DNA from: Paenibacillus thiaminolyticus
GTDB taxonomy: Bacteria > Bacillota > Bacilli > Paenibacillales > Paenibacillaceae
Direction: 5' to 3'
Assembly (NCBI RefSeq): GCF_007066085.1
Contig: NZ_CP041405.1
Location: 6,548,443-6,612,442, forward strand
Length of the DNA: 64,000 nucleotides
A model generated the notes under the pieces. The model saw nothing but the letters and a program-made list of their open reading frames with translations. It was not told where the DNA came from and made no database searches. Made by a program: the position numbers and the translations under genes. Positions 2,002 through 60,934 of this stretch are shown here, piece by piece. Position 1 is the first letter of the stretch; each line of letters begins with the position of its first letter.

Positions 2002-2166
2002 AGGTTCAATGGCAACTCCTTATCTCCTTCGTTCCGTGTCACGTTACCGTTAGCTTATCACAAAGCAATAGGATTTGTTAAATGCAGAAGGGGCTGCCCC
2101 AAAAGCCATTCTCTCCGCCGTGATACAGCTCCGGCCTGCTTCATGCAGCGGGGCTTGCCGAGAAAA

Positions 2167-2680
2167 CTGCAAACAGACAGCATTTCCTTGGGGAGCTCCT
2201 TCATTACAGGAATTCCTGCAAAACTCAGGCTGTTGAGTAAGTCCAAGGGTTTTTTTTTGCACTGCATTTTTTATGTGGTGGATTTCGTCTCTCCGTAGAA
2301 AAAATCGATTTAAAATCGCTATGAGCGCCAAGTTTTGGTTAGGAAAATGGATAATCTCCAGCCCTTCGTAAAAAATGGGGGTTGTCCAACGGCCTGAAAA
2401 CTGCACCAATCCGCAAAACTGCACGATTTCTCCAGACACGCCTTATTCGTTAAGCGAAATCTGCAAAACTGCACGATTTCTACGCCTATTCGGTAAGCGA
2501 AATCCTGCGCAAATACAGCAATTCGATATGGACGACTTTCCCAGAAAGGGAATCCTGCAAAACTGCAGGAATTTCACCCGTTTCTCTTCGACTTAGCTCA
2601 AAAGGGCCTAAAATGATGTAGCTGTGCAGCAATTCCTCGAAATGTGGACTCATTGAGCCGAAATTCCTGTAAAATAGCAG
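2167..2680. repeat. Intergenic dyad-repeat element, locus A (six good sites plus degenerate ones)
   Basis: 14-bp near-palindromes begin at 2411 (CCGCAAAACTGCAC), 2461 (CTGCAAAACTGCAC), 2505 (CTGCGCAAATACAG), 2555 (CTGCAAAACTGCAG), 2616 (ATGTAGCTGTGCAG) and 2667 (CTGTAAAATAGCAG). Distances are 50, 44, 50, 61 and 51 bp, i.e. three pairs with 50-51 bp inside each pair. Two weaker sites at 2167 and 2216 are 49 bp apart. No convincing gene lies in 2002-3105. The same pattern recurs at 30.1, 34.3, 49.9 and 59.5 kb. Confidence 0.85.
2327..2397. repeat. Flanking repeat, copy 1 (second copy at 2757-2805)
   Basis: A segment beginning GCCAAGTTTTGGTTAGG and ending TTGTCCAACGGCCTGA recurs at 2757-2805 as GCCAAGTTTCGATTAGG through TTTTCCAACAGCCTGA. 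The two copies lie about 430 bp apart on either side of the main dyad sites of locus A. A TCTCC-containing stretch before each copy also looks related. Confidence 0.6.
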
Positions 2681-2756
2681 CAATTCCCTCCACACGTTAA
2701 ACCCCAGGAGATTATGATGTCTCCAGAAGGCGATGACGCTCTGAATGCCAAGTTTC

Positions 2757-2805
2757 GATTAGGTAGTCACCCCTCCGAAAAAACAGGGGTTTTCCAACAG
2801 CCTGA
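2757..2805. repeat. Flanking repeat, copy 2 (first copy at 2327-2397)
   Basis: This is the partner of the 2327 repeat, with the same beginning (GCCAAGTTT) and end (CCAACRGCCTGA) and an internal deletion of about 20 bases. It is followed by a weak dyad, CTGATCTATGCAG. Confidence 0.6.
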
Positions 2806-2962
2806 TCTATGCAGGATTCATCAACCACTATTCTCAAAAATGTAAAATAATTGAAATATAATAATCAACAGAGGATTTAGACGCTTCCTGCTTCGAGGCC
2901 TGTCAAAAGTCACCTTCGAGGTCGGGCGGCTCAAACTCTGCTCAAGCGGGCAGTGATGAAGA

Positions 2963-3010
2963 AAAAAGGTCGACCAGGGAACGAATGAAAACCCTGCCTC
3001 GACCTTTTCT
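2963..3010 (-). terminator. Terminator downstream of the CNNM/CorC gene (possibly bidirectional)
   Basis: An interrupted stem runs from AAGGTCGACCAGGG to CCCTGCCTCGACCTT. Read on the minus strand it ends in CGACCTTTTTTC, a good U-tract, and it lies about 100 bp after the stop of the minus-strand gene at 3106. Confidence 0.6.
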
Positions 3011-3105
3011 TTGAATTTTGCGGGCATCCCACAGCAGTAAAAAAGTACTTATGGGACAGCCTCGATTCTAGCGCCAGCCGCCACGATCATGGCCGCTGGA
3101 ATCTG

Positions 3106-28426: not shown

Positions 28427-29634
28427 ATGAATGAGTATGCGAATTCGCTAAAAAAAACGCTGACATCCCTCATACGAGAAATGGCAGCCGCACCAGCTCC
28501 TTATGTCAAAAACCCTGAAAAGATTTTACCCGAAAGAAAAAGCTGCCCTTTGAAACGGTGATGCAACTCCTGATCTCCATGGGGCAACAGCATATATAAG
28601 GAACTTTGGAATCACAAGGCTATGACGTAAACACCGCAACCACTTCCGCTTTGTCCAACAGAGGAATAAAGTGCTGCCGTCTGCTGTGGAATTCTTGTTT
28701 CACGCATTTACGCAATCGGTTACGGATATCAAGGACTACCGAGGGTATCGGCTACTTGCCGTTGACGGTTCGGATTTGCATATCGCAACTGACTCTGCGG
28801 ACACGGACACCTATTTTCAAAGTCAACCGAACACGAAAGGCTATAACCTTCTGCATTTGAACGCTGCCTATGACTTGTGCAACAGACTGTACGTGGATGC
28901 CATTGTTCAGCCACGAAGGTTGTGCAACGAGGGAAGGGCGCTGGCTGCTATGGTTCACCGTTCTCCAATCAAGGGCAAAACCATTGTGATTGCCGATAGA
29001 GGTTATGAAAGTTACAACAATTTCGCGCATCTTGAACGCAAAGGGTGGAACTATGTCATACGGGTAAAGGATTTGGATTCCAATGGTATTCTTTCGGGCT
29101 TGCGTTTGCCCTCTAGCGGAGAGTTTGATAGGAACGTTCATCTGACACTCACCAAAACAAACCAAAGAGGTCAAGGCTAATCCCGAGATTTACAAGTTCG
29201 TTCCTTCCACGTCTACCTTTGATTTTTTGGATTTGCATGAGAACTTGTTTTACCCGATTTCCTTTCGGGTGGTTCGTTTCGTCCTGCCGAGTGGCGCTTT
29301 TGAGACCGTCATTACGAATCTTACCGCCACGGATTTCCCACCGGGTGAAATCATGTCAATGTATAACATGCGATGGGGCATTGAAACCTCATTCCGGGCA
29401 TTAAAGTACACTGTCGGTCTGACGAATTTTCATGCAAAGAAACGAGAGTCCATCACCCAGGAGATATTCGCAAGAATGATCCTGTACAATTTCGCTGAAA
29501 TGATGACCTCGCACGTCGTCATTCCCAAATGGAGAAACGGCACCCCTATCAAGTTAACTTCACGGTTGCCGTTCACGTGTAGACACTTCCTGCGCTCAAG
29601 GGACGATGAACCCCGCCTGATGTTGAAGCGCTGA
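28427..29634 (+). mobile_element. IS4-family transposase remnant (several frameshifts)
   Basis: A single DDE transposase can be followed across frames. The N terminus starts at 28427 behind GAGGAGG and breaks near 28520. The core (28671-29180) holds the first Asp in YRLLAVDGSDLHIAT and the second in GKTIVIADRGYESYNN. The last part (29227-29634) holds the IS4 Y-(2)-R-(3)-E-like stretch YNMRWGIETSFRALKYTVGL. At least three frame changes make it inactive. Terminal inverted repeats could not be placed, so the element's true ends are unknown; flanks to about 28366 and 29740 show no genes. Confidence 0.85.
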
Positions 29635-30070: not shown

Positions 30071-30246
30071 CTGCAAATTTACCGTATTTTATCGCATAGG
30101 AGGGCGTGTTTTCCATAATTGCTGTGAAAATACAGGAATTTGCCTGTTTTCACGGAAGTGGCGCTGGTACAGGGTAGAATTGATGTATATTTGCAGGATT
30201 CCGAGTAACCTTAATCGGGCGTGAGGAAAATCCTGCATTTTTGCAG
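30071..30246. repeat. Intergenic dyad-repeat element, locus B (four sites)
   Basis: 14-bp sites begin at 30071 (CTGCAAATTTACCG), 30122 (CTGTGAAAATACAG), 30183 (ATGTATATTTGCAG) and 30233 (CTGCATTTTTGCAG). Distances are 51, 61 and 50 bp. Sites 1-2 are A-rich after CTGC and sites 3-4 T-rich before GCAG, so the whole element is arranged as a large inverted repeat. Confidence 0.85.
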
Positions 30247-34250: not shown

Positions 34251-34426
34251 CTGCAAAATTACATTATTTTAGAGCACTGGAGGATGGATTCTCGATAATT
34301 GATGCATAGATACATTAATATCCCTTATTTAACAGAATATGAGCCCTGGAGGGGTGAAATTGCTGTATATTTGCAGGATCCCTCGCGACGCTAATCGGCA
34401 TTGGAAAAAATCCTGCATTTCTGCAG
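34251..34426. repeat. Intergenic dyad-repeat element, locus C (four sites)
   Basis: Sites begin at 34251 (CTGCAAAATTACAT), 34301 (GATGCATAGATACAT), 34363 (CTGTATATTTGCAG) and 34413 (CTGCATTTCTGCAG). Distances are 50, 62 and 50 bp. The outer arms resemble locus B over most of their length, while the sequence between sites differs. No gene is evident in 33990-34647. Confidence 0.85.
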
Positions 34427-45987: not shown

Positions 45988-48900
45988 ATGCATACGGTAT
46001 TCTATGAAAATGCCCCGAGCGGCTGGAACGAGGCGTTGCCGCTCGGCAACGGGCATTTCGGCGGAATGATGTTCTTCGAGGATAATAGGTTGACGCTGGC
46101 GATGAATCATTACGAGGTGTATTACCGGAAGCTTCACCGTTATAGCCAGGCGTATCGCTGCGGTGAGAGGCGATCGTACCGGAAGATGTACGGCCGCACT
46201 TACGAGGAACTGAAGGAACGGGCGCGCGAGATGTACCGCGATCCGGAGCGGGAGCCGTTCTTCCTCTATGGCGATGCGCTGTCGGAGCATAATCTGCATC
46301 GCCGCTACGGCAAGCCGGCCGGCGGCGTGTCTCATTATCCGACGGGGGAGATCGCCCTGTTCCCATCCGCGGAGCTGGCAGACCCCGACCGCTATGTCCT
46401 GCAGCTTGATGTCGAGCAAGCATGTGTCCGGCTGCGGATCGAGCAAGGAGAGGACAAGCTGGAGGCCTGCACGATTATCGCCCAAGACGGGGACTATGTC
46501 CTGTGCGAGATTCGGCAGACGTCTCCATCGCTGCTGGAGGCGGTCTCACTATCCCTTCCGGTCCGGAGATATGCGGAGTTGGCCGCGGATTATTGGCGGG
46601 TCGATGACACGACCTTTTGCTATCGGGGCTCCTTCTATCCGGACGGCGAAGACCGTGGGGTGTATGAGCCGTTTTCTTTTCTCGTCATGACGAGGATCGC
46701 CGGAGCGCAGGGGATAGCGGACATAAGCGACGATGGAATGCGAATCCGCCTTGCGGCTGCCGAGCCGTCGGTGACGCTGCTGACGACCGTGGTGACCGGG
46801 GCGCCGGATCTGGAGGCCGTCGCCCTAGAGCGGCTGAATCGGGAGGCTGCCCGGGTCGAGCGGCTGAAGGAGCGCCATCGTGTGTACTGGACGCGCTTCT
46901 GGGAACGCTCCTCCGTCTCGCTCCCCGATCCGCTGCTGGAGGATCTGTGGCATATCAATCTGTATGCGATCGCCTGCAGCAGCGGCAAGGGCGGGAGAAT
47001 GGCCGAGCAGGCCTGCGGTCTGAACGGCCTGTGGGATATTAAGCAGCCGACCAAATGGGGCAGCATGTGGTATTGGGACGTCAATATTCAGGCGGCGTTC
47101 TGGCCGCTCTATACGACGAATCATCTGGAGATTGCCGAGGTGTTCCACGACGGGCTGCTGTCGTATGCCGATGAAGCGGAGCGGATGGCGCGGGAATTTT
47201 ACGGGCTGGACGGCATCGCGGGCGATTATCCGCATGCGCTGTACTACAGTATCTGGCCCTGGTGCGCGCAATTTTTGTGGGACTATTACCGCTACAGCAT
47301 GGACCGGGAATTCTTGAAGGAGAAGGCGTATCCGCTGTTCAAGCGCATTCTGCGGTTCTGCGAAGGGATTGTGGAGGCGGACGGCGAGAGCGGTACATAT
47401 GCCGTCTTCCCCGATATCTCGCCGGAGCAGGGACCGCTGACGCGGAATTCGGTCAGCACGCTGTCGACGGTGAAGCATCTGCTTCGCATCGCTGTTGAAG
47501 CGAATAGGCTGCTGGGCGAGGCGGAGGAGGATCGCCGCCGCTGGAGCGAGCTGGCGGAGCGGCTTGCCCCTTATCCGACGGGCGAGTCGAAGCGTTACGG
47601 CTCCGTGCTGCGCGATTCGGAATGGGCGCCCGCCGGCATGCCTCTGCGCCATCCCTCGCTGCTGATGCCGATCTATCCGATCGGCGAGCTCAGCAAGCAT
47701 AGCGCGCCGGAGCTGCGGCAGTTGGCGGAGAACACGCTCCGCTATGCGGAGCATCATACCGAATATGGCGTGTTCCAGTTCGGCTGGCTCTCCTGCGCGG
47801 CCTCGCGGCTGGGCAAGGGGAACGCCGCGCTCCGGCTGCTCTATGAGCAGGGGATCGATCTGTCGCTGCGGGGCAATGGCTTGTTCGCGGAGGAGACGGA
47901 GCGGTGGATGAATTACTGCAACATTACGAATGAACCGCTCTATCATCCGCATATGATGGAGGCTTCCGGGGAGGTGGTCGCCGCTATCAATGAAATGCTG
48001 CTGCAAAGCTGGTCCGGCGCCATCGAGGTGTTCCCCGCCATCCCGTCAGGGGAGCCGGAGCCGGATCGGATGGCCGGTCTGTATGCGCATGAGGTCGGCC
48101 ACAAGGTTCGTCCTTACGCCAGGTGGGAGGAGTGCAGCTTCCGCAATCTGCTGGCGGCGGGAGCGTTCGAGGTCAGCGCCGCCCGGAGGGAGGGGCGCAC
48201 GGCCTGGGTCCGGCTGAAGAGCAAGGCGGGACAGCGCGCCGTATTGGTCCATCCGTTCGGCCCGGAGGCGGAAGCGGCCGTGGCGCGGCTGGACGAGTCC
48301 GGGTGGAGGAGGATTCCGCATCATTTGGAGCAGGGGCGGCTCGGCTTCGACACGGAGGCCGCCGGAGATTATGCCGTGTATCCGGCGGCGATTGCGGTGG
48401 ATGGTCTCTCACTGGTTTTGTGCGGGGAGGCGGGAGCCGAGGATGCGGCCGCCGGGTCGGCAGTTGGACAGTCGGATGAGCCAGGCCAGTCCGATAATCC
48501 TGGTGAGGCCTGCCAGTCTGGTGATGCGGGTCGGGGCGGTATGGCAGATCGATCTGCTGAGGCGGGTCAATCTGGTGTTGTGGAGCAGTACGGTAAGATG
48601 GGGAAGTTCGGTGAGTCGGGTCAGTCTGGTAAGGTGGTGCAGTGCGGTGAGGCAGGGCAATCTGGTGAGATGGAGCAGTACGGTAAGACGGGGAAGTCCG
48701 GTGAGTCGGGTCAGTCTAGTGAGATGGAGCAGTACGGTAAGATGGGTCAGGCAGGTGAAGTGAGGCAATCAAGTGAGAAGGGGCCGTTCAGTGAGGCAGG
48801 CCGTTCCGGCGAGACGGGCGAATCCGATGTGCCCGGTCAAGCTGCTGTGCCGGGTCCGGGCCGCAGCTCGCCGCGTGTGCGCGAGGCGCATACGGGCCGG

Positions 48901-49503
48901 CGGGTCTTTCTCGGGAAGGACCGGGATACGCGGCATTATCAGCTGCTGGATCATTTCACCTTCGATTATTATGCGGGCAATTACCGGGAATCGCGTCTCG
49001 CCGCCTACCGGATCGATTGCGGCCCGGGGAAGCGGGCCAAGGATTACGGCCAGGCCTTGCCGCGGCAGGTCCATATAGACGGCATCGTAGGCCAGACGTT
49101 CCGCCCGTTAACGCCGCAGATGGCCTTTACGCCTTATACGGGCATCGGGTGGATGGACGGTGGGGAGCTGATCGCGGAAGACCGCGGGGCGCCGGATGAG
49201 CTGCGCCGGGATTTCATCGGCGGGACGGAGGAGGCGACGCTCTTGATCGAGCTGCCGCGAGGCCGCTACGATCTGCTCTTCGTCTCCGGAGACAGCGCCA
49301 GCCCTTCGTATACGGCCATCGAGATCGAAGGGCAGTGCGTCTGGCAGCCGGAACGGCCGCTGCGCACAGGAGAATTCGCGACCGACATTGTGCCGATCGC
49401 GCAGAGACGGGACGGCTGCGCGGCGATCCGCTTCAGTGCCGGGAAAGGTTTGCCGTGGCGGGTGAATGTACTCATTGTGAACAAGAATTATCCGTATTTG
49501 TGA
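45988..49503 (+). CDS. GH95-like glycoside hydrolase (alpha-L-fucosidase family) with repeat linker
   Basis: 1171 residues. The N-terminal domain opens FYENAPSGWNEALPLGNGHF-GG, the GH95/GH65-like signature. The helical barrel has MWYWDVNIQAAFWPLYTTNH, matching the N-x-N...WP region of GH95, but the first position is D364 where fucosidases of the family have Asn (N366 is kept). Residues ~825-955 are a Gly/Gln/Ser/Glu hexapeptide repeat. The last ~210 residues form a second domain resembling the beta-sandwich of rhamnogalacturonan esterases. No signal peptide, so it is cytoplasmic. Start 45988 after GGAAGGAG. Substrate may be fucose or a related sugar. Confidence 0.8.
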   Translation: MHTVFYENAPSGWNEALPLGNGHFGGMMFFEDNRLTLAMNHYEVYYRKLHRYSQAYRCGERRSYRKMYGRTYEELKERAREMYRDPEREPFFLYGDALSEHNLHRRYGKPAGGVSHYPTGEIALFPSAELADPDRYVLQLDVEQACVRLRIEQGEDKLEACTIIAQDGDYVLCEIRQTSPSLLEAVSLSLPVRRYAELAADYWRVDDTTFCYRGSFYPDGEDRGVYEPFSFLVMTRIAGAQGIADISDDGMRIRLAAAEPSVTLLTTVVTGAPDLEAVALERLNREAARVERLKERHRVYWTRFWERSSVSLPDPLLEDLWHINLYAIACSSGKGGRMAEQACGLNGLWDIKQPTKWGSMWYWDVNIQAAFWPLYTTNHLEIAEVFHDGLLSYADEAERMAREFYGLDGIAGDYPHALYYSIWPWCAQFLWDYYRYSMDREFLKEKAYPLFKRILRFCEGIVEADGESGTYAVFPDISPEQGPLTRNSVSTLSTVKHLLRIAVEANRLLGEAEEDRRRWSELAERLAPYPTGESKRYGSVLRDSEWAPAGMPLRHPSLLMPIYPIGELSKHSAPELRQLAENTLRYAEHHTEYGVFQFGWLSCAASRLGKGNAALRLLYEQGIDLSLRGNGLFAEETERWMNYCNITNEPLYHPHMMEASGEVVAAINEMLLQSWSGAIEVFPAIPSGEPEPDRMAGLYAHEVGHKVRPYARWEECSFRNLLAAGAFEVSAARREGRTAWVRLKSKAGQRAVLVHPFGPEAEAAVARLDESGWRRIPHHLEQGRLGFDTEAAGDYAVYPAAIAVDGLSLVLCGEAGAEDAAAGSAVGQSDEPGQSDNPGEACQSGDAGRGGMADRSAEAGQSGVVEQYGKMGKFGESGQSGKVVQCGEAGQSGEMEQYGKTGKSGESGQSSEMEQYGKMGQAGEVRQSSEKGPFSEAGRSGETGESDVPGQAAVPGPGRSSPRVREAHTGRRVFLGKDRDTRHYQLLDHFTFDYYAGNYRESRLAAYRIDCGPGKRAKDYGQALPRQVHIDGIVGQTFRPLTPQMAFTPYTGIGWMDGGELIAEDRGAPDELRRDFIGGTEEATLLIELPRGRYDLLFVSGDSASPSYTAIEIEGQCVWQPERPLRTGEFATDIVPIAQRRDGCAAIRFSAGKGLPWRVNVLIVNKNYPYL
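48462..48850 (+). repeat. 18-bp (hexapeptide) tandem repeat inside the GH95-like gene
   Basis: About 20 six-residue units of type G-Q-S-G-E-x / E-Q-Y-G-K-M. Exact long copies such as GAGCAGTACGGTAAGA recur at 48583, 48673 and 48727, i.e. 90 and 54 bp apart, multiples of 18. Codon use shifts to GGT and AGT here, unlike the flanking high-GC coding sequence. Confidence 0.85.
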
Positions 49504-49639
49504 GATCTCGATGTTCAAAGAGTAGGCCGATGTTAGCGAATGTCGCAATTAGTGCGGTCGTGCCGAAGTAATCCGAGTAAATTCGTAGGTCAGCCATGTC
49601 TGCAGCCGGATAGCGGGCATTGCGGCGGATTGTAACTCG

Positions 49640-49860
49640 CTGCTGCAGCGGGTCGCGGAAGCTTAATGCGCGCGTGCTGGGTGTGACCAGTAGTATGAGT
49701 CGTGCTGCGTCTGGAACAAGTAGTGTGGGGATGGTGCTTCCGCGGAAGTAGTATGGGTTGCATGACTCATCTGGGCCAGTAATATGCAGTGAGTGCTGCG
49801 TCTGCAACAGTAGTTTTTTAGACCAGGGCGATGGCCCCTGGTTTTGGGATATTCCACTGA
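49640..49860. other. Gene-free stretch with diverged AGTAGTATG repeats and a hairpin
   Basis: AGTAGTATG-type words recur five times with GTGCTGCGTCTG between some of them, in a region without a convincing reading frame. A stem ACCAGGG / CCCTGGT followed by TTTT at 49822-49846 could terminate transcription from the GH95-like gene. Confidence 0.45.
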
Positions 49861-49886
49861 TGAAAGGGGAGTGACGACCTGGAATC

Positions 49887-50062
49887 CTGCGAAACTACAG
49901 TATTTTTTCCACTTGGCGGGTAATATGGGGGAAATTCCTGCATGGGTACATCATTTTGCTCGATTCGTGTCCAAACCAAGCGATAACATACAAAATTGGT
50001 GCATTTTTGCAGGATTCACTCGTTCGAATAGCGGGGTCTATGAAAATACTGTACTTTTGCAG
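49887..50062. repeat. Intergenic dyad-repeat element, locus D (four sites)
   Basis: Sites begin at 49887 (CTGCGAAACTACAG), 49938 (CTGCATGGGTACAT), 49999 (GTGCATTTTTGCAG) and 50049 (CTGTACTTTTGCAG). Distances are 51, 61 and 50 bp, the same rhythm as loci B, C and E. Confidence 0.85.
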
Positions 50063-50326
50063 CATTTTGGAGGGGAGAGGAGCTAAGTCTATATAATTGT
50101 GTAAAAAGCAAATGGCAAAAAAGAGCCATAGCGGGGAGAGTATAATTGGCCCGGACGAGTGCGAAGGCGAGTGTGAGCGCAGCTGGTCCTGGCACGCTCC
50201 GGACGCCCGGGAGGGGAGGATGCGAGCGCGGCTCTTCGCGGGGCGTCGGCGGCGGCTTCTTGGGGTTGGAGGGCCTTGGCGCAGACAAAGGCAAGACAGC
50301 GGTGAACAGACAAAGGCGAGGCAATG

Positions 50327-50416
50327 GTGCAGACAAAAGTGAGACAAAGGCGAGACAATGGTGCAGACAAAAGTGAGACAAAGGCGAGACAATGGTGCAG
50401 ACAAAAGTGAGACAAA
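50327..50416. repeat. 34-bp tandem repeat
   Basis: Units starting GTGCAGACAAAAGTGAGACA lie at 50327, 50361 and 50395 (third incomplete), preceded by more diverged GACAAAGGCGAGG copies from 50283. Frames open through the block on both strands but encode only repeats. Confidence 0.8.
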
Positions 50417-50494
50417 GGTGCGGATCAAACGGTGGACAGAAGGTTTTTGTTATGGCTAGCGGATTGCTTTGTTCTGGAAAAGGTGCTACACTCG

Positions 50495-50525
50495 TTTTAA
50501 ACGATGATTTAAACATCGTTTAAAA
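50495..50525 (+). promoter_or_regulatory. Perfect 12-bp inverted repeat, probable TetR operator
   Basis: TTTTAAACGATG / CATCGTTTAAAA with a seven-base spacer that is itself AT-rich (ATTTAAA). It lies about 180 bp before the tetR-like gene. Confidence 0.65.
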
Positions 50526-50528
50526 GGA

Positions 50529-50632
50529 TTTCATTTTAAAAAGAATGTTCTCTTTCATTTTCAAGAGGTTGTTCTCTTTCATTTTTTAAGAGAATGTTTT
50601 CCTCCATTTTTAAGAGATATCTTCCTTCATTT
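50529..50632 (+). repeat. 24-26-bp tandem repeat in the tetR leader
   Basis: Four adjacent units beginning TTTCATTTT or TCCATTTTT at 50529, 50553, 50577 and 50603, each with an AAGAG(A)ATGTTCTC-like second half, and a partial fifth at 50622. The block fills the space between the operator palindrome and the gene. Confidence 0.7.
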
Positions 50633-50705
50633 CAGCTCGACCAAGACCAACGCAAATTGGGCAAGTGTAATGCTCTTACATCAATTCAGAATAAGGAGGG
50701 GTTCG

Positions 50706-51270
50706 ATGACACCGCCAGACCAGAGTACTGATACGAAAGAGAAGATTTTGCAGACGACATTGGACGTCATCAAGCGGGAAGGATTCGACAGCGTGACGGT
50801 TCGCAAGATCGCGTCCCATTCCGGCACGAACATCGCGCTTGTCAATTACTATTTTGGTTCCAAGGATAAGCTGATCAACGAGGCGATCAAGGGCTTGCTG
50901 ATCGGCTTTCGCGATACATTCGATGTGCTGGATGACGTATCTGTCCCGCCGAAGGAGCGATTGAAATTCTTTTTGGCCCGCTATGTTCAGGTCATTCAGC
51001 AATATCCGGAGCTGGTGCTTCATACGATAGCCGCCGGCTCGGCGATGTTCGCGTCCCAGCATGAGTATGGGGAATTTTTGCGGGCCACGGCCGGAATCGT
51101 TAGTGATAATGATTACGCAAATTTTTGGCGCCATTTTTCTCCCCGCATTAATGAAGCCGCTGCTTGAATCCGGGGCCGGGGTCAAGCAAGCTCCTATCGA
51201 CAGGCAAATCGATTTTTTGTTTGAACGCTATTTTCCTGAACAGGGAGAAGCAAAGGAGCGAGGGGAATGA
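50706..51270 (+). pseudogene. TetR/AcrR family regulator, frameshifted near 51095
   Basis: The HTH region is intact: ILQTTLDVIKREGFDSVTVR, then TNIALVNYYFGSKDKLINEA. The open frame from ATG 50706 (after AAGGAGG) stops at 51167, but the last ~50 residues make sense only in the +1 frame: SLVIMITQIFGAIFLPALMK through DRQIDFLFERYFPEQG, ending at 51270. One lost base in the GC-rich run around 51085-51105 explains this. Restored, its stop overlaps the next gene by four bases. A partly functional or wrongly sequenced gene is as likely as a true pseudogene. Confidence 0.8.
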
Positions 51271-51923
51271 AATTTCTAAGAGATTATTGGCAGGATCTAG
51301 GTCTCGTTGTCGCCTTCTTCGTATGCATTGGCCTGCTGGCAAATGGAGATCGCACACCGGAAATCGAGATTATCTTATGGCTCAGCTTTGTGGCGATATT
51401 GGTGCATCAATTCGAAGAATATCGGTGGCCGGGTTATTTCGGAGGGCTGTTTAACGCCGTCATTTTTCGAAGCGAGCACCCGGAGCGCTACCCGTTGAAT
51501 ACGCAATCCGCCATGATCATCAACCTCGGCATCGCTTATCTGTTCTATCTTCTACCCGTCTTTGTACCGCATCTCATCTGGCTCGGGCTTGCCCCCGTTT
51601 TCATGGGCTTTTTCCAATTTATATGGCATGGCATCTTTGCTAACCTCAAGGCGAAAACAATATATAACCCCGGCTTGGGCGCCGTTCTGCTGCTTCATTT
51701 TCCGATCGGCGGCTGGTATATCTATCATATCTTGACTCACAATCTGGCAAGCGCGTGGATTGATTTTGGGCACGGTTTATTTTGTGATCGCCGTCTATCT
51801 TTCATCATCAAGGGGAATATGTGGCTGAAGAACGAACACTCGCCCTATGCGTTTACTCCGAAGCAGCTTGGCCCGTACAACTTGTCCGCAGAACGAAAAA
51901 CGCAGCACGGGGATCGGGACTAG
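51267..51923 (+). CDS. HXXEE domain-containing membrane protein
   Basis: 218 residues with about four to five hydrophobic segments. The eponymous motif is HQFEEYRWPG near residue 50. The stretch LASAWIDFGHGLFCDRRLSF is not membrane-like, whereas a shifted frame gives ILGTVYFVIAVYLS there. Two compensating indels around 51765 and 51805 therefore probably altered ~15 residues; the end NEHSPYAFTPKQLGPY is back in the family frame. HXXEE proteins are of unknown function and often sit beside TetR genes, as here. Confidence 0.78.
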   Translation: MKFLRDYWQDLGLVVAFFVCIGLLANGDRTPEIEIILWLSFVAILVHQFEEYRWPGYFGGLFNAVIFRSEHPERYPLNTQSAMIINLGIAYLFYLLPVFVPHLIWLGLAPVFMGFFQFIWHGIFANLKAKTIYNPGLGAVLLLHFPIGGWYIYHILTHNLASAWIDFGHGLFCDRRLSFIIKGNMWLKNEHSPYAFTPKQLGPYNLSAERKTQHGDRD

Positions 51924-52012
51924 CCAACGTTCGCAGCGGATACTTGCATGACAAGGTCCGTCTTCTTCAGCCTTTTCCGTAATGAAGCGGCGTTGATGCT
52001 TGTGAGACTTTT

Positions 52013-53197
52013 TTACTTAAATAAGTTAAGCGTCGTAATAATGATTGGCATAGCGAACACATCAATCAGAAAGGCGCCGACAATAGGAACGATCAGGTAC
52101 GCTTTGCGGGAAGGGCCGAAGCGCTCCGTGACCGCGGCCATATTGGCCATCGCATTGGGCGTGGCGCCCAGTCCGTGGCCCGTGAAGCCTGCGACCATTA
52201 CGGCGGCGTCATAGTTTTTGCCGAGCAGCCGGAACAAAATGAAAATACCGAACAGGACGATAAATACGACCTGGACCAGCACGATGACGAGGATTGGAAG
52301 CGCCAGATCGGCTACCTCCCACAGCTTGATGCTCATGAGCGCCATGGACAGGAAGATGCCAAGCGTAACGTCGCTAATCAGGTTGATGCTTTTCATATCG
52401 ATCGCTTGTGGCTTGAATTTATCCACGGTATTGCGGACGATGACGGCGACGAACATGGCCCCGACATAACCGGGCAGGACGAAGCCGGTGGCTGACGAGA
52501 ACAGATCTCCCAAATATGTCCCTAACGCCATGCAGAAGGTAATGAGCAAGACTTGAATGAAGAAAGTATGAGTCGTAATCGGCTGTGCGTGTTCTTTTAC
52601 GTCCACAGCATCCTCAATGGCTTCGGTTGGTTTCAGATTGTATTTGCCAAGCAGATACTTGACCGTCGGGCCGCCGACCAAGCCTCCGGCGATAAGACCG
52701 AACGTGGCCGCCGCAATCCCGATGGACAGTGCGGACGGGATGCCCATCTCTTCGATGGTTTGTCCAAATGCGGTTGCGGCTCCATGTCCGCCTTCCATAG
52801 ACACCGCTCCGGCCATCATCCCGATCAGGGGGTGGATGCCGAACAGGGAAGCGAGGGAGACGCCGATGACATTTTGCGCCAGAGCGAGGAAGCCGCAGGC
52901 TAGCCAATAGATGACGAGCAGCTTGCCGCCCAGCTTGATGAGCTGGAAGCTGGCGCCCAAGCCTACCGTGGTGAAGAACGTGAGCATGAACAGGCTTTGG
53001 AGCGAGGTGTCTAATGTAATGGATAACAGGCCTGTCGTCTTCAGAATTGTAGCGATAATGGCGAACAAGAGACCTCCGACCACGGGGCCGGAATACAAAA
53101 CCTTTGCAGCACGCCTGTCTTTTGACAATGAATGTCCGAGTACGAGCAGCGCGACGGCCAAAAATATCGTGTTCACTTGATTAAGTGCCAATGTCAT
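52013..53197 (-). CDS. Sodium/glutamate symporter (GltS-like)
   Basis: 394 residues with ten or more helices. The N-terminal LNQVNTIFLAVALLVLGHSL, the loop GAVSMEGGHGAATAFGQTIE and its counterpart GFTGHGLGATPNAMANMAAV are the paired re-entrant motifs of the GltS/ESS family of Na+-coupled glutamate carriers. It overlaps the HutG-like gene by 17 bases, so the two are one operon: import of glutamate (or a related compound) next to an enzyme that releases glutamate. Confidence 0.9.
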   Translation of the reverse strand: MTLALNQVNTIFLAVALLVLGHSLSKDRRAAKVLYSGPVVGGLLFAIIATILKTTGLLSITLDTSLQSLFMLTFFTTVGLGASFQLIKLGGKLLVIYWLACGFLALAQNVIGVSLASLFGIHPLIGMMAGAVSMEGGHGAATAFGQTIEEMGIPSALSIGIAAATFGLIAGGLVGGPTVKYLLGKYNLKPTEAIEDAVDVKEHAQPITTHTFFIQVLLITFCMALGTYLGDLFSSATGFVLPGYVGAMFVAVIVRNTVDKFKPQAIDMKSINLISDVTLGIFLSMALMSIKLWEVADLALPILVIVLVQVVFIVLFGIFILFRLLGKNYDAAVMVAGFTGHGLGATPNAMANMAAVTERFGPSRKAYLIVPIVGAFLIDVFAMPIIITTLNLFK

Positions 53198-54143
53198 CGT
53201 TGTCCCTCCCTAAAATGGCCATGATGGCTTCATTCGTCAAGTAAGCACCTAACTTTACGGTTCTGCCCTGTTCGTCTACGGCCGGATTCACTTCGCAAAT
53301 ATCAAAAGAAAGCGCTTTCGAATGTGATGCTGCCGCTCGGATAAGGCTGCGGACAATCATCGGATTCAATCCGAAAGGGGACGGGGCGCTGACTCCCGGC
53401 GCAAATGCCGCATTGATCACGTCGGTGCACAGGGTAAGCATCACATAATCGTGCTGGTCGATAAATTCGTGCAAGGCGGATGTAATCTCATCCATCAGTC
53501 CATCCTGCATCTCTTCTTCCAAAATATAGCCCGCGCCAAGCTCGTCCGCCTTGTCGAACAGCTCCTGGGTATTGCCGAAGCGCTGAATGCCGAGCACAAA
53601 ATAATGGCTGTTGCGGTCCTGCTCCAATATTTGGCGGAACATCGTGCCCGAGGAAGGCTGCTGGTCATAGGCGCGCAAATCGAAATGAGCGTCAATGTTG
53701 ATGATGCCCAGCGAAGCGTCTGCGCCGATATAGCGGCGGACCCCTAGATAATGCCCATACAGCGTCTCATGGCCTCCGCCTAATATAATCGGAGTAGCCG
53801 CTGCGGACAGGATGCGGTAGACCGCCTGGCCCAATGCTTCCTGGGCTTCTTCCAGCTGTTCGCCGCGGCAGCTTATATTGCCGGCGTCGGCAAGCCGATG
53901 GCCTTCCTCGGCTCTCCAAGGAATGCTTGCAAGCGCCCGCCGGATCGCATTCGGAGCTTGTGCCGCCCCGACTCGGCCCTGATTCCGCCGCACGCCTTCC
54001 TCGCATTCAAACCCGATAATGGCGCAAGTCTTGGCAGAGGCAGCAGAGGCAGTCTGCCATGTATCCAGATCGATCGGTTCCACGATTTGATGGTAGCGGA
54101 AGCTGCTTCTTCTCTGCATGATCCGTCCGTCCGGTCCACACAT
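53181..54143 (-). CDS. Formimidoylglutamase/ureohydrolase family protein (HutG-like)
   Basis: About 320 residues of the arginase fold. Metal-site motifs: GGGHETLYGHY (His), INIDAHFDLR (two Asp and His) and a third motif reading TLCTDVINAAFAPGVSAPSP. In the third motif the usual DxD is C-T-D, so the first ligand Asp is replaced by Cys. I cannot say from memory how common that is in Bacillus HutG. HutG splits N-formimidoyl-glutamate to glutamate and formamide, but no other hut gene is present. Several in-frame starts exist (TTG 54152, ATG 54143, ATG 54119); 54143 has a moderate AAGGTTGG site. Confidence 0.8.
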   Translation of the reverse strand: MCGPDGRIMQRRSSFRYHQIVEPIDLDTWQTASAASAKTCAIIGFECEEGVRRNQGRVGAAQAPNAIRRALASIPWRAEEGHRLADAGNISCRGEQLEEAQEALGQAVYRILSAAATPIILGGGHETLYGHYLGVRRYIGADASLGIINIDAHFDLRAYDQQPSSGTMFRQILEQDRNSHYFVLGIQRFGNTQELFDKADELGAGYILEEEMQDGLMDEITSALHEFIDQHDYVMLTLCTDVINAAFAPGVSAPSPFGLNPMIVRSLIRAAASHSKALSFDICEVNPAVDEQGRTVKLGAYLTNEAIMAILGRDNDDIGT

Positions 54144-54301
54144 CAGATCCAACCTTGTTTTGCAATTTTCCCATCCTCTCTATGAGTTTCTGACCTGTAT
54201 TCGGTTGTTTGTATTATTATAAGATGACATTCTTATAATTTAAAATATATAATATTAATAAATTAATAGCTTGGAGTTATAAATTAGAAAGGAAGATAGC
54301 G

Positions 54302-55204
54302 TTGGACATCAAGCAATTGTTTTATTTCGTGACGGTTGCCGATCAGTTGAGCTACTCCAAAGCGGCGCAAAAACTGCATATTTCCCAGCCTTCGTTAAGC
54401 AACGCCATTAAAAATCTGGAGCATGAGGTCGGTTCGCCCTTGCTGGAACGAAGCACCCGAAAAATAGAGATGACGGACGCCGGCAAAGTGCTGTATAACA
54501 AATCGCTTCAGCTCCTGTCCCATATGAACATTTTGAAAAAGGAGATGCAAGAGGTAAGGCTGACGGGAAGCGGGGAGCTTATCATCGGCATGATCGAGTC
54601 GGTGAGGCATTGGGTTCCGAAAGTCATTCGCGAATACCAGGGCCGGTTCCCTTCGATACGGATCAAGCTAATCGAGGTGTTGAGCCGGAAGGCGGTCATC
54701 GATTCCTTGCGGAAATATCATACCCATCTCATCATTACCAATCAGTGTATTGAGGAGGAGGACATCGAATCGCTTCCTTTATATAAGGAGAAATTGGTGC
54801 TCGTGCTGCACCGGGATCACCCTCTGTCCGTGAAGGAATCCATTACCTTTACAGAGCTGGCCGAGGAGCCTTTTATTATTAGCATGGAGGGGTTCCAGAC
54901 GAGGGAGGATATTTTGGAAGCCTTCGCGCTTGAAGAAGCATCCCCGAACATCCAATTTGAAATTGAACGCTTTGAGACCGCTTTGACACTCGTCCGAGAA
55001 AATCTGGGGGTTGCCATCATCCCTGAAAATTATCTAGTTGAACCGAAGGATGCCTCCATGGTCCGGAAAATGATGGATTCGCCTGCGCTCGAACGAACGG
55101 TGTATCTAACGTATATGAAAAACCGCTATTTGGCTCCCGCGGTCCAGAGCTTCCTGGAAGACATTCAACGGTGCTTCGCCTCAGACCACAAAGCCAACGT
55201 CTGA
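54302..55204 (+). CDS. LysR family transcriptional regulator
   Basis: 300 residues. The N-terminal HTH is standard (MDIKQLFYFVTVADQLSYSK, AAQKLHISQPSLSNAIKNLE) and residues ~90-295 form the LysR substrate-binding domain. TTG start behind GAAAGGAAG. It is divergent from the HutG-GltS operon with an AT-rich intergenic region, and is the likely regulator of it, perhaps responding to glutamate or formimidoyl-glutamate. A hairpin covers its stop codon. Confidence 0.93.
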   Translation: MDIKQLFYFVTVADQLSYSKAAQKLHISQPSLSNAIKNLEHEVGSPLLERSTRKIEMTDAGKVLYNKSLQLLSHMNILKKEMQEVRLTGSGELIIGMIESVRHWVPKVIREYQGRFPSIRIKLIEVLSRKAVIDSLRKYHTHLIITNQCIEEEDIESLPLYKEKLVLVLHRDHPLSVKESITFTELAEEPFIISMEGFQTREDILEAFALEEASPNIQFEIERFETALTLVRENLGVAIIPENYLVEPKDASMVRKMMDSPALERTVYLTYMKNRYLAPAVQSFLEDIQRCFASDHKANV

Positions 55205-55216
55205 CGGACGTTGGCT
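55192..55216. terminator. Hairpin between the convergent LysR and PocR-AraC genes
   Basis: Perfect 10-bp stem AGCCAACGTC / GACGTTGGCT with a five-base loop; the minus strand continues with TTTG. It overlaps the LysR stop. Confidence 0.6.
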
Positions 55217-55241
55217 GCGCCGCTCGCGATGGAGCAGATCT

Positions 55242-56263
55242 CTAGCGCTGGTAAATCTGCCGATAGCGGGCCGGCGTAATGCGCTCGAATTTTTTGAACG
55301 TTTTGATGAAATAGCTTGGTTCGCTGAACCCGAGATCGTTGCTGATCTGCGAGACGGACAGCTCCGTCGTCTCCAGCAGCTGCTTGGCCCATTCCATCTT
55401 CAGGCGGGGGATGAACACGGAGAAGTTCTCTCCGGTCTCCTTCGTAAAGATGCGGCTGAAATAGCTCGGACTGACATGACAGAGGACCGCCATATCGGCC
55501 AGCTTCACATTTTCGCTTTTATGACTATAAATATAATCGAATGCCGGCTGCAGAATCGGGTTGACGCTTCCGTTCTCTGCTGGGTCATGCTGTTGATGTG
55601 ACTGTTGAGCAGCGTGTTTTCCAGTTCGCTTTTCATGGTCTGAATATTGCGGAACGCATGATCGGCCAACGAATCGATGATCGGGTTATTGCCGGTTAAC
55701 GCTTGCCGGTACATGTCGATGGTCGCATTTTTATGAATCGCTTCCTCTACAATATAATTGCATAGATGATACAGCATCTCCGAGATCGTCACCACTTCGT
55801 CATACGACAGGACCGGCAGCGAATCGTAGTCCTGCTCCAGGGTGCGGAATTTGGCGTTGGCGACGGCATTGGAGGGACGCGTCACGATCTGCTCCAGGTC
55901 CATCGGGTTGTCGCGCAGCTTGACCTGACCGGCCATGATGGCGCCCATATATTGATTGTGAACGATAATCGGGATGGCAATATCGACAATATTGAAGTGG
56001 CAAAGGTAGATATAAGGCTTGTTCAGCCGCACCGCTTCCAGACCGCCCCGAGCGTCGCATTTTTGGCAGTAGGGCGACAAGGCTTCGTCCCGGCGTATCG
56101 CCTGGCAGAAGCTCTGGCAGTGACTGTGCTTCGTGACGGGCACGCCTTTATAATCGGTCGTGATGACGGCCATTTTCGTAACGAGAGAGAGCGAGTCCTG
56201 CAGCGTCTGCCATTTTTCCATATCAATGATGCTGTCCAAATGAAACCGCGAGGTCATAATCAC
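55242..56263 (-). pseudogene. PocR-domain AraC-family regulator, split by one frameshift
   Basis: The N-terminal frame (56263 to 55505) is a PocR ligand-binding domain with its cysteines (HSHCQSFCQ-like KHSHCQSFCQAIRRDE, SPYCQKCDARGGLEAV). It runs out of frame near 55590, after QQRTE. The adjacent frame continues SVNPILQPAFDYIYSHKSEN and then the AraC HTH pair (VSPSYFSRIFTKETGENFSV, ISNDLGFSEPSYFIKTFKKF) to 55242. One missing base restores a protein of about 340 residues. PocR regulators respond to propanediol or glycerol-type inducers, which fits the divergent glycerol dehydrogenase and DHA kinase genes. Confidence 0.85.
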
Positions 56264-56463
56264 TCATTCTCCTTCCGTACGCTCTTCCCTATTATAGCAC
56301 ATAATAATCGGATGACAGGACAAGATAATACTATTTTGAATAAGAGGATAAGAAAATACGATGAGAAAGCGCTTTATTTTGCAGGGATAGTTCCATGATC
56401 TTGTACCCGGCCGCAACTATAATGGAAGTGGAAGTTCACACAACACAGAGGAGGATTACGCAA

Positions 56464-57594
56464 ATGAGAAAAGCGTTTATCAGTCCAGCCAAATATGTAC
56501 AAGGTGAAAATGAACTCTTGAATCTCGGATATTTTATCAAAACCTTCGGAAAATCGGCTCTGCTGATTGCCCATGCCGATGATGTGCAGCGCGTCAAGCC
56601 GAAGCTTGAACATACGATGAAGACATATGGAGTGACGCTAGTTGAGAGCGGTTTCAACGGAGAGTGCTCCCGTCAGGAAGTGCAGCGGTTGAAGAAGCTT
56701 GCGGCGGAGCATAATTGTTCCTGCACGATCGGGCTGGGCGGAGGCAAGGCGATCGACACCTCCAAATGCGTCGCGGAAGGCGAAGCGCTCATTATCGTTC
56801 CGACGATCGCGGCGACGGATGCGCCGACAAGCCATTCCGCCGTGCTGTATACGCCGGAAGGAGAGTTCGACGATTATGCTTATTTCAAGCAAAGTCCGAC
56901 GGTCGTCATGATCGATACGACGGTGATCGCGAATGCGCCGACGCGCTTCCTGGTCGCCGGGATGGGGGATGCGCTGTCGACGTATTTCGAAGCGAGAGCG
57001 ACGTCGAATTCGTATTCGCGAGTCAATGCAGGGCTGCCATGCGGCGAGCAAGAGGGGGTAGGTCCGGCAGTCGGCACCCGTGCCGCGCTGGCTCTGGCCA
57101 AGCTGTGCTATGAGACTTTGCTGGAGGATGGAGCCAAGGCCAAAGCGGCCTGCGACGCGAATCTGGTGACGCCTGCGTTTGAAAATATTGTGGAAACGAA
57201 TATCCTGCTGTCCGGCCTGGGCTTCGAAAGCGGCGGTCTCGCGGCGGCTCATGCGATCCACAATGGCTTGACGGCACTGGAGGGTACGCATCATTATTAT
57301 CATGGGGAGAAAGTGGCCTTTACGACGCTGGTGCAATTGGTTCTGGAAAATGCGAGCACCGCGGAAATGAATGAGGTGCTGCAATTCTGCGTCAGCGTGG
57401 GCCTGCCGGTCTGTCTGGCTGATATCGGCGTGACGAGCGTGACGGATGAAGAGCTGCGGAACGTGGCGGCCAAAGCCTGCATCGCGGAAGAGTCGATTCA
57501 TTCGATGCCATTCCCGGTTAATGAAGAGATGGTGGTGGCCGCGATTCGCGTCGCGGATCAGATTGGCCAGCAATTTAAGCAAAAGGGTGAATAA
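56464..57594 (+). CDS. gldA: Glycerol dehydrogenase
   Basis: 376 residues, the usual length. NAD-binding GLGGGKAIDTSK, and the zinc ligands Asp in AGMGDALSTYFEA and two His in AAAHAIHNGLT and HHYYHGEKVAF, are all present. It oxidises glycerol to dihydroxyacetone with NAD+. GAGGAGG lies before the ATG at 56464, though the frame is open from 56395. The DHA kinase gene begins four bases after its stop, so the two form the classical oxidative glycerol route. Confidence 0.95.
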   Translation: MRKAFISPAKYVQGENELLNLGYFIKTFGKSALLIAHADDVQRVKPKLEHTMKTYGVTLVESGFNGECSRQEVQRLKKLAAEHNCSCTIGLGGGKAIDTSKCVAEGEALIIVPTIAATDAPTSHSAVLYTPEGEFDDYAYFKQSPTVVMIDTTVIANAPTRFLVAGMGDALSTYFEARATSNSYSRVNAGLPCGEQEGVGPAVGTRAALALAKLCYETLLEDGAKAKAACDANLVTPAFENIVETNILLSGLGFESGGLAAAHAIHNGLTALEGTHHYYHGEKVAFTTLVQLVLENASTAEMNEVLQFCVSVGLPVCLADIGVTSVTDEELRNVAAKACIAEESIHSMPFPVNEEMVVAAIRVADQIGQQFKQKGE

Positions 57595-57597
57595 TCG

Positions 57598-59346
57598 TGA
57601 AGAAGATTATCAATAAGCCGGAGACACTTGTCCGGGAAATGTGCAGCGGCCTGGTGCTTGCTCATCCGGAGCTGGAATTCATCAGCAAGTACAAGATCGT
57701 GAAGAAGAGAGCTGAACGGGGAAAAGGTCACCTTGATCAGCGGCGGAGGAAGCGGCCATGAGCCGGCGCATGCCGGCTTCGTCGGGCAAGGATGCTCGAT
57801 GTGGCGGTGTGCGGCGATGTGTTCGCCTCCCGTCCCAGATTCAGGTCTATCAAGCGATCAAGGCTTCCGCCAGCAAAAGGGCACGCTGCTCATCATCAAA
57901 ATTATAGCGGCGACATTATGAACTTCAAAATGCGGCCCATCTCGCGGAAGAAGACGGCATCAAGGTCGATTATGTGAAAGTGGACGACGACATCGCGGTG
58001 GAGGACAGTCTGTATACGGTCGGCCGCCGAGGCGTGGCCGGAACGGTGTTCGTGCATAAGATCGCCGGCGCTGCCGAAGCGGGCCTGGAATTGGCGGATG
58101 TGAAGGCTGTCGCCCAACACGCGATCGACCGGACGAGAAGCATCGGCTTCGCCCTCACGTCCTGCACCGTCCCGGCCAAAGGGACGCCGACCTTCGAGCT
58201 GGGCGAGGATGAAATCGAGTACGGCGTCGGCATTCACGGCGAGCCCGGCATTCGCAGGGAGAAGATGCAGTCGGCGGATGAGCTGGCGAAGAAAATGGTG
58301 GCGGATCTGTTCCGCGATATGAAGCTGGATGATGGCTCCGCTGATGAGCTTGCGGTGCTGGTGAACGGGTTCGGCGGCTCGCCGCTGCAGGAGTTGTATC
58401 TGCTCGCTAACGCGGTCGTGCGGGAAATCCGCAGTCGTGGAGTCTCCATTTTTAAGGTCTTCGTCGGCAACTATATGACGAGCATCGATATGGCCGGGGC
58501 TTCCGTGTCTTTGATGCGGCTGGATGAGCAGTTGAAGCCGTTTTTGGAGGCGGACTGCGATACGCCGGCGCTGCAGGTCAGCGGGCCGTTCGCGCCGCTG
58601 GCTGTCCAGGAGGAGGCAGCGGAGACGGCGGAGAAGCAAGCGGTGTCTTATCGCTGCGAGACGGATCCTGCCTATGCGAAGATTGAGGGGAATGTGTTCT
58701 CGCTGAACAACTTGATCTATCTTACCGACAAGATGAGCGAGATTATTATCGAGAATGAAGTGCCCTTCTGCGAGCTCGATTCGCATGCCGGGGACGGCGA
58801 CTTCGGCATGAGCGTCGCGAAAGGCTTCAAGCAATTGAAGCGCGAATGGCATGAGATTCTGGCGCATCACGCCGGGAATATCGGCGAGTTCTTCCATGCT
58901 TGCTCCCTGGTCATTATGGAGCATTGCGGCGGCGCTTCCGGGCCGATCTGGGGCTCGGCGTTCCGGGCGGCCGGGAAATATGCCGGGGACCGCACCGAAT
59001 TGACGGTCCCTGAATTCGCGGGGATGATGCAGGCGGTGGTCAAAGGGATTCAGGACACCGGCGAACGCTCCTTCGGCCGCGGTGCTGTCGTCGGCGACAA
59101 GACGCTGATCGACGCGCTGGCTCCGTTCGCGGACGCCTGGGAGCGGAGCGCCGTAGCGGGCGACGAGGTGAAGACGGCAGCGACCGCAGCGGCGGAAGCT
59201 GCCGTCAAGGCGCGAAGCATACGGAGACGATCGTCGCCCGTATGGGCCGGGCAGGCACGGTTGGCGAGCGCAGCCTCGGCTACCCGGACGCCGGCGCCTA
59301 TGCGCTCGGCGTGATTTTCACGGAGTTGGCGCGGGTGATGGAGTAG
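57598..59346 (+). pseudogene. Dihydroxyacetone kinase DhaK-DhaL fusion with several single-base deletions
   Basis: Joined frames give a single ~583-residue ATP-dependent DHA kinase. DhaK: GSGHEPAHAGF, then the substrate-linking His in YGVGIHGEPGIRRE. A DhaL domain begins about 58660, with CELDSHAGDGDFGMSVAKGF and HCGGASGPIWGSAF. Frame breaks lie near 57713, 57792, 57830, 57865, 57898, 57925 and 59212. Most would be repaired by restoring one base in a run (AAAA to AAAAA, CCC to CCCC, GG to GGG). The end, YPDAGAYALGVIFTELARVM, is the family terminus at 59346. GTG start. As given the gene cannot make full-length kinase. Confidence 0.87.
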
Positions 59347-59350
59347 CACT

Positions 59351-59374
59351 TGGCCCCTGCGGTTGCAGGGGCCA
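59351..59374 (+). terminator. Hairpin after the DHA kinase gene
   Basis: Stem TGGCCCCTG / CAGGGGCCA with a six-base loop directly after the stop; no T-run. Confidence 0.55.
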
Positions 59375-59481
59375 GGCTCAGGTGCAGGCGCTGCGGCAGA
59401 TGCCAGTGGCAGGTGCACAGGTGGAGCGCTGCTGGACTTCTGAACTGCCGGGCTTCCGGAAGTGCCCGTCCGGGGACAAAT

Positions 59482-59651
59482 GCTGCAAAACTACAGTAAT
59501 TTACTCCTTTGGCAGGCGGATAAGGTCAAAAGCTGCGCTGGTGCAGCTTTTGACCTTTTGCCGTCAGGAGCAAAGTGGTGAAAATTCCTGTAGATTTGCA
59601 GGAATCATTTTCGGGTAGCTAGTTGTCTCGGAGAATACTGCAGTGGTGCAG
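59482..59651. repeat. Intergenic dyad-repeat element, locus E (four sites)
   Basis: Sites begin at 59482 (CTGCAAAACTACAG), 59532 (CTGCGCTGGTGCAG), 59588 (CTGTAGATTTGCAG) and 59638 (CTGCAGTGGTGCAG). Distances are 50, 56 and 50 bp. Site 2 is the tip of a perfect 15-bp hairpin, AAGGTCAAAAGCTGC / GCAGCTTTTGACCTT (59522-59557). Confidence 0.85.
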
Positions 59652-60717: not shown

Positions 60718-60934
60718 TCCTCCTGATAGATCAATACTTTGTAATTAAGAGCGGTAGTACAGAATTCAATACTGAACTGCCGCTTTTTTGTGTTTATTTG
60801 GAAATGTTTCGATAGTATGTCCTCATCTTGTTTAAGGATTCAGTTTACTTAACTTTATATTTATTGTCCTGACAAGTGTTGTAGACGATCCAAGATAATA
60901 AAAAAAAGGACAAGGTAAACAAGCTAAAAAAGAA

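Follow-up and report, generated by a model that had tools for sequence, protein, structure and literature searches.

The window analysed here comprises the last 64 kb of the genome of Paenibacillus thiaminolyticus (G000; genomes and fetched loci carry G and L numbers throughout), which is a single contig of 6,612,442 bp. Five loci in this window hold arrays of a repeated element composed of four palindromes of about 26 bp, with start-to-start distances of 50, 61 and 51 bp. We consider it likely that the element serves a cognate nuclease as its DNA-binding array, that the nuclease gene and the array at its 3' side constitute a unit, and that arrays have spread through the genome as REPINs (REP doublets forming hairpins, REP denoting a repetitive extragenic palindrome) are spread by REP-associated tyrosine transposases (RAYTs).

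That the five loci have 14-bp near-palindromes in common had been claimed in a preceding sequence-only reading of the window and was confirmed for all five, the motif CTGYANNNNTRCAG with at most one mismatch having 28 occurrences in the window and 4.1 +/- 2.5 in shuffled sequences (largest count 11). Across the whole genome the exact motif was found 283 times and its reversed pattern 16 times, and a symmetric profile trained on exact motifs gave a wider site of about 26 bp, approximately RAAATYCTGCAAATTTGCAGRATTTY. In the window and 57 fetched stretches, together 911 kb, this profile detected 392 sites versus 23 in the reversed control, a density that is inflated because the stretches were selected for a motif match; the spacing pattern is not a product of that selection. 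Pair distances peaked at 50 (77 pairs), 51 (58), 61 (63), 111 (58), 112 (53) and 162 bp (49), and the reversed control had no pair within 300 bp. Among 55 quartets, 26 were spaced 50/61/51, 23 were spaced 51/61/50 and six were off by one base. The two mirror orders are one element in two orientations. The large dyad described earlier was borne out, and so was the conserved and apparently selected spacing, whose rule proved stronger than first described: sites at random distances were not what the genome-wide scan revealed, and the four-site pattern had 100 matches in the P. thiaminolyticus genome and none in its reversed control. The helical pitch of DNA is about 10.2 bp per turn; distances of 50–51 and 61 bp thus equal five and six turns, and the sites therefore face the same side of the DNA. 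When 49 exact quartets were sorted by spacer identity into 18 groups, the identity among group representatives was 70% in the sites, 35% in the spacers and 26% in the outside flanks. In genome G368 three quartets are joined into 12 sites with a strict 51/61 alternation (L131, 3607-4241), as if quartets could fuse into a longer phased array.

Array A (2411..2680, plus strand) has sites starting at 2411, 2461, 2505, 2555, 2616 and 2667, that is at distances of 50, 44, 50, 61 and 51 bp, so that a standard 50/61/51 quartet (2505-2680) is preceded by two additional sites 44 and 94 bp upstream. The remaining arrays are on the minus strand: array B (30071..30246; starts 30071, 30122, 30183 and 30233), array C (34251..34426; 34251, 34302, 34363 and 34413) and array D (49887..50062; 49887, 49938, 49999 and 50049) all read 51, 61 and 50 bp, which is 50/61/51 on the minus strand, and array E (59483..59651; 59483, 59533, 59588 and 59638) reads 50, 55 and 50 bp. 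The earlier spacings were right overall and needed correction in array C, where 50 and 62 bp had been given, and in array E, where the central distance had been put at 56 bp and the start at 59482. The deviating spacing of array E looks like an assembly artefact, since a second assembly copy of the locus at the contig start (L002) reads 51/61/50 and the two copies align over 3019 bp with no mismatch and 18 gap openings; the gaps visible in the printed alignment lie in homopolymer runs. Window positions 48548-60989 and contig positions 2559-15017 (G000:C1; L001 and L002) carry the same sequence with almost nothing but gap differences, the two stretches of roughly 3 kb compared having 1 and 0 mismatches and 14 and 18 gap openings, and this duplicate is probably an unmerged terminal overlap of a circular chromosome with homopolymer errors.

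The four-site pattern was present in nine of 60 genomes, that of P. thiaminolyticus included, and a sequence-only profile of the element matched 171 of 394 genomes of the family Paenibacillaceae, in 17 of 19 genera; copy numbers per genome are minimum values because about six candidates were scored in each. Spacings of 49-52 and 60-62 bp were found with few exceptions in 39 stretches fetched from other genomes, which had been selected for profile matches. An exact three-site pattern occurred in at least 113 stretches among 84,980 named genomes, and all of those listed belonged by title to the Paenibacillaceae (Paenibacillus, Cohnella, Fontibacillus and metagenome-assembled genomes). No match was obtained with one exact pattern in viral contigs, or with array C alone in a plasmid collection.

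The sequence-only reading had suggested looking for a protein that co-occurs with the repeats, and a candidate emerged from the clustering of neighbouring genes, for which 80 of the at least 113 named loci were looked at, of which 53 match the array profile. Of the 14 largest clusters, a single one lay near the array and in three loci (in P. faecis, Fontibacillus phaseoli and a metagenome-assembled genome): a protein of about 225 amino acids, 82-190 bp away. Larger clusters (response regulators at 12 loci, ABC transporters at seven) lay about 3 kb away and looked ordinary, and no other close neighbour family was seen to be shared, either by eye at eight loci or by gene clustering. The structure model of the candidate predicts a Vsr-like nuclease domain of the EDxHD homing-endonuclease-like type, followed by a C-terminal winged helix of the MarR/ArsR type; D63, D72, E85 and H92, candidate counterparts of the conserved E, D, H and D of the EDxHD active site (3r3p), are invariant in 60 sequences. 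A kinship to Vsr and DUF559 proteins is also suggested by a borderline match of one family member to Pfam DUF559 (PF04480; 20.5 against a cutoff of 20.6), by the precomputed assignment of PF04480 to many homologues, and by homologue names such as very-short-patch-repair endonuclease. The partner protein had no match in NCBIfam or in sequence searches of the PDB, and the PADLOC anti-phage defence models had none at E<=1 for two family proteins. TnsA of Tn7 is an endonuclease joined to a winged helix, and its two-domain layout is similar to that modelled here (weak Foldseek match to 1t0f, E 0.012), whereas the ends of Tn7 have a geometry unlike that of the arrays.

Arrays and nuclease co-occur. 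Homologues at E<=1e-10 were found in 297 of the 394 family genomes, among them 167 of the 171 array-positive ones, as against four array-positive genomes among the 97 without a homologue (tallied by hand). Within Paenibacillus thiaminolyticus' own genus, every one of the 12 array-positive genomes has a homologue with an E value of 1.1e-60 or lower, and of the seven array-negative genomes five have none and two have distant ones. The single homologue detected in the P. thiaminolyticus genome (C1:2925305-2925991), 95% identical to a protein of the same species, is followed by an array whose first 14-mer begins 5 bp past the stop codon, and an array of the same motif was present at 24 of the 30 best-scoring homologue loci. 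Many genomes of another genus (g6, e.g. G136) harbour one distant homologue at E about 1e-22, with a weak 50/63/51 array at L339, the one locus inspected, and these homologues are perhaps an older, single-copy branch.

The association extends to paralogues with other recognition motifs. A motif-blind scan, which covered 2.28 Mb of fetched DNA and required four palindromes that resemble one another and are spaced 50/61/51 (+-1) bp, returned 134 peaks versus two for random spacings at a score of 6.3, and 146 versus 10 at 6.0. The TGYA core was missing in 11 of the 146, some of which had clear unrelated cores (CGGAC..GTCCG, CGATG..CATCG, GCGGC..) and others of which were chance-like; 300 kb of stretches from G016, G003 and G060 gave one real and one control peak at threshold. 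A first version of the CGGAC pattern had one match, with three mismatches, in 197 family genomes, and a version with improved spacing matched two of the 19 genomes of the genus (G003, at its gene, and G007, probably by chance), with one control match in G009. We then considered 60 nuclease loci, made up of the 30 close homologues and 30 further loci (27-66% identity) from 11 genomes with up to 10 homologue matches each. When the loci were scanned for four sites, two forward and two reverse, 51 of the 60 beat all 12 control spacing sets, with 4.6 expected by chance, and 41 of these 51 arrays (23 at close homologues, 18 at paralogues) lie approximately -2 to 303 bp beyond the end of the gene; distances for L299-L328 rest on one nominal gene end and are accurate to about 30 bp, the nominal end being wrong for L319 and missing for L342. 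The nine loci that failed the controls were L304, L321, L323, L324, L337, L343, L344, L345 and L354, although L323 holds an array by profile and L343 a 51-bp array after re-centring. In the re-centred scan of 35 loci, 26 did better than six control sets, the margins being slim or doubtful for L324, L331, L338, L339, L342, L344 and L357. Quartets of five, six and five turns were clear at L333, L334, L335, L340, L341 and L348-L351, and uniform 51-bp arrays at L336, L346, L347, L352, L355, L356 and L358; the spacing of about 61 bp first read at these last seven stemmed from off-centre windows. In G060 and G322 the paralogue motif occurs in the gene-side arrays and at five and three other places in the genome, respectively, with no control match. 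Those in G060 (C1:6039657-6040138 and five other places) are uniform 51-bp arrays of CATCGTYGCA palindromes.

The site motif tracks protein similarity and the spacers hardly do. For those 45 of the 51 positive loci that have their array between -60 and 700 bp past the gene, a Mantel test of motif against protein similarity gave r 0.863 (0/2000 permutations), and r 0.569 (0/2000) for the 20 paralogues alone, values that are inflated by the shared descent of a gene and its linked array; the permutations ignore relatedness. Even so, among 25 close homologues the sites were 67% identical and the equally linked spacers 40%, while between close homologues and paralogues the identities were 38% and 36%.

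Based on these observations, each palindrome would be the site for a dimer of the nuclease, bound through the winged helix, and four dimers could assemble on one face of the DNA into one symmetric complex since the sites lie five, six and five turns apart. The gene and its 3' array would form the unit from which about 100 further array copies became dispersed in the intergenic DNA of the P. thiaminolyticus genome. The most likely route is that the nuclease domain breaks DNA in or beside an array location and that repair from another array copies that array in; in this lineage arrays are also carried by miniature inverted-repeat transposable elements (MITEs) inserting into site centres. Parallel systems, often within the same genomes, would be formed by the paralogues, which have recognition sequences of their own and arrays in the same or a uniform 51-bp geometry.

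Besides the shared descent that affects the Mantel test, several observations weigh against this explanation. No clean case of a bare-quartet insertion was found, and the quartets absent from a relative lay in larger indels. A spacing of 44-48 bp, as seen for the additional sites, does not correspond to whole helical turns. In four of the array-positive genomes no homologue reaches E<=1e-10 (G275 with six matches; G024, G167 and G169 with one borderline match each), and the best homologue has one in-frame stop in the array-positive G006, G012 and G018. Conversely, 130 array-negative genomes have homologues, which we read as paralogues with other motifs, a reading tested in part. Three of the 30 close homologues (L304, L321 and L324) have no convincing array, L324 beating its control by 0.06 without a visible motif, and none was found at L319, a locus cut by the contig end. 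The array was away from the gene end or doubtful at ten of the 51 positive loci (L303, L308, L319, L329, L330, L332, L338, L342, L352 and L357), and by the strict pattern the G003 CGGAC quartet was found at its paralogue gene and nowhere else.

It is possible, if clearly less probable than spread by the nuclease, that the arrays belong to a domesticated host system and persist because they are useful to the cell, for instance in chromosome organisation, repair or the marking of self DNA. Their placement would suit such a role. As judged with a simple purpose-made gene caller, all of 44 quartets lie wholly outside predicted genes, and convergent gaps are over-represented (16/44 versus 29/214 among background gaps of at least 250 bp), which supplies the positions relative to genes that the sequence-only reading had proposed to tabulate; the arrays in the genome number about 100. 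One gene copy each was detected in G000, G011 and G014, under purifying selection. The sites are also kept in place while spacers drift. Four relatives are syntenic with the P. thiaminolyticus genome at about 90% identity over the 20 kb tested, array C being found again at the corresponding position of G001 and G007 and array D at that of G001 and G011. Nine comparisons of seven orthologous quartets, a set that omits locus A versus L084 (not orthologous) and two L062 comparisons of uncertain mapping, gave 87.1% identity in sites and 72.6% in spacers, with 9/9 in the same direction, and therefore old copies have been retained in place along with their sites; the better conservation of dyads than of spacers was another point that the sequence-only reading had marked for comparison. 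The fuller set of 12 that includes those three, and omits seven comparisons with absent or gapped arrays and two register-shifted duplicates, gave 87.7% and 76.5%, with 11/12 in that direction. On the other hand, the patchy presence in 171 of 394 genomes, the several homologues per genome and the turnover of motifs look more selfish. Host use and nuclease-mediated spread are compatible with each other.

A winged helix of the MarR/ArsR type, together with palindromic and phased sites, might also suggest the operators of a transcription factor. However, the arrays are mostly 3' of the nuclease gene, divergent gaps are under-represented among the quartets (5/44 versus 62/214), and no other close neighbour family was seen to be common to the arrays, so that we regard operators as improbable.

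Mobile insertions occur in and around the arrays, and the locus that opens the window is a case in point. A MITE-like insertion (2226..2804, plus strand), with the ends CAGGCTGTTGAG (2226) and CAACAGCCTG (2804), carries array A and splits an older quartet, whose remnant (2167..2225, plus strand) consists, as read by eye, of a degenerate site at 2167-2180 and a left half-site at 2216-2225; the right half-site picks up again near 2811, and the target duplication is imperfect. Around it lies an outer insertion with approximate bounds 2090..3063 and no strand assigned, which ends in GGGGCTGCCCCAAAAG and, on the reverse strand, GAGGCTGTCCCATAAG and is without counterpart at the orthologous place in G001, G007 and G011. 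Young copies, those of the locus A family, belong to insertions that relatives lack and that measure very roughly 570-1040 bp, with ends set by alignment. One MITE class, of which the insertion carrying array A is an example, ends in CAGGCYGTTGAG/CAACGGCCTG and goes into the middle of array sites: 11 of 16 candidate junctions, some of them nested or mispaired, score beyond the 99th percentile of junctions chosen at random, and in three of the 11 (L035 at 9374, L084 at 18661 and L102 at 9828, in strand coordinates) CTGC and GCAG are separated by a perfect 6-7 bp duplication. A fourth site-centre insertion was read by eye at L065, and two more perfect-duplication junctions (L032, L055) fall outside a good site. 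An open frame at 28671-29180 of the window matches a DDE transposase domain (PF01609, positions 3-108 of 200).

These insertions raise the question of whether the arrays are passengers of ordinary insertion sequence (IS) or MITE elements, functionally unconnected to the nuclease, and some larger insertions carrying arrays do have terminal inverted repeats or a target duplication. The sequence-only reading had foreseen that the copies might align as degraded ends of a known transposon; this was not seen for the quartet itself, though locus A sits within an insertion with IS-like ends. Conservation ends about 6 bp beyond the outer sites (-6/+182), with no common sequence further out among the 18 divergent groups. 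As the geometry is also preserved in arrays adjoining nuclease genes despite unrelated motifs, and the motif tracks the protein, a passenger origin appears unlikely.

The palindromes appear to be duplex sites for a symmetric protein, because covariation between half-sites and a conserved RNA fold are both lacking. Among 100 sites from 25 elements, three of which were later found to be register-shifted, paired positions had no excess of complementary combinations; the Y/R position of the half-sites had a deficit (0.48 versus 0.56), and two near-invariant positions a slight excess. RNAalifold gave a consensus fold of just -2.95 kcal/mol with seven pairs on an alignment of 28 sequences (A1) from which the three register-shifted elements were excluded, and a search of the window against Rfam had no match at the arrays or elsewhere. 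Of the roles envisaged in the sequence-only reading, a protein site on duplex DNA is thus retained and paired RNA hairpins are not; these, or bidirectional terminators, could be imagined from the palindromy of every site with its A/T flanks and from the convergent genes at 16 of 44 arrays, but are very improbable given the lack of covariation and of a stable fold.

Spread by a cognate nuclease invites comparison with the systems of REP/BIME/REPIN repeats and RAYT (TnpA-REP) proteins. Dispersed high-copy extragenic palindromes, a cognate nuclease gene beside the array, repeat presence that follows the gene and repeat-protein coevolution are described there (PMC2817692, PMC1525189), and adjacency, co-occurrence (compared as presence, not abundance) and motif-protein coevolution are all found here as well. 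Array sites receive MITE insertions as REPs receive IS elements (PMC1525189). In contrast to RAYTs, which are HUH tyrosine transposases of the IS200/IS605 type flanked by inverted REPs, the partner here is predicted to be a Vsr-like nuclease with a winged helix; unlike REPs, recognised as single-stranded hairpins, the sites look to be of the duplex kind, without half-site covariation or a conserved fold. The fixed spacing of five, six and five turns and the position of the array mainly 3' of the gene (the 5' side was scanned unsystematically, and L302 has both) are further differences. By analogy, arrays and nuclease would work like REPIN-RAYT systems (PMC2817692, PMC8049555) without being a member, because enzyme and DNA form fail the defining features of that family. 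The catalytic fold predicted for the nuclease is shared with the EDxHD homing endonuclease I-Bth0305I, which dimerises on a target of nearly 60 bp (PMC3943268). Unlike that phage enzyme with its one target, the present nuclease has a winged helix and an array next to its own gene, and the four palindromes, over about 180 bp, recur in many copies in the genome. Neither a DUF559 protein with cognate genomic arrays nor a description of this array-nuclease system was found in searches of an open-access literature library.

It may be, although we would put this at somewhat below even, that the arrays represent a new class of genome-resident element, in which winged-helix EDxHD-type nucleases act as helically phased multi-dimer complexes on their own palindrome arrays, be these quartets of five, six and five turns or uniform five-turn arrays, and copy them around the chromosome by break and repair, with specificity diversified by gene duplication, geometry fixed by the shape of the complex and several orthogonal pairs per genome. 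Should the nuclease indeed be the partner, this would account for a repeat family present in 171 of 394 genomes of one bacterial family and would give REPIN-RAYT an independent counterpart, so that the question of why bacteria keep nuclease-linked repeats would become testable in two unrelated systems. The many natural protein-site pairs, with a motif readable from the adjacent array and a built-in spacing code, would then also be useful for the study of winged-helix specificity and of how proteins assemble cooperatively on phased DNA.
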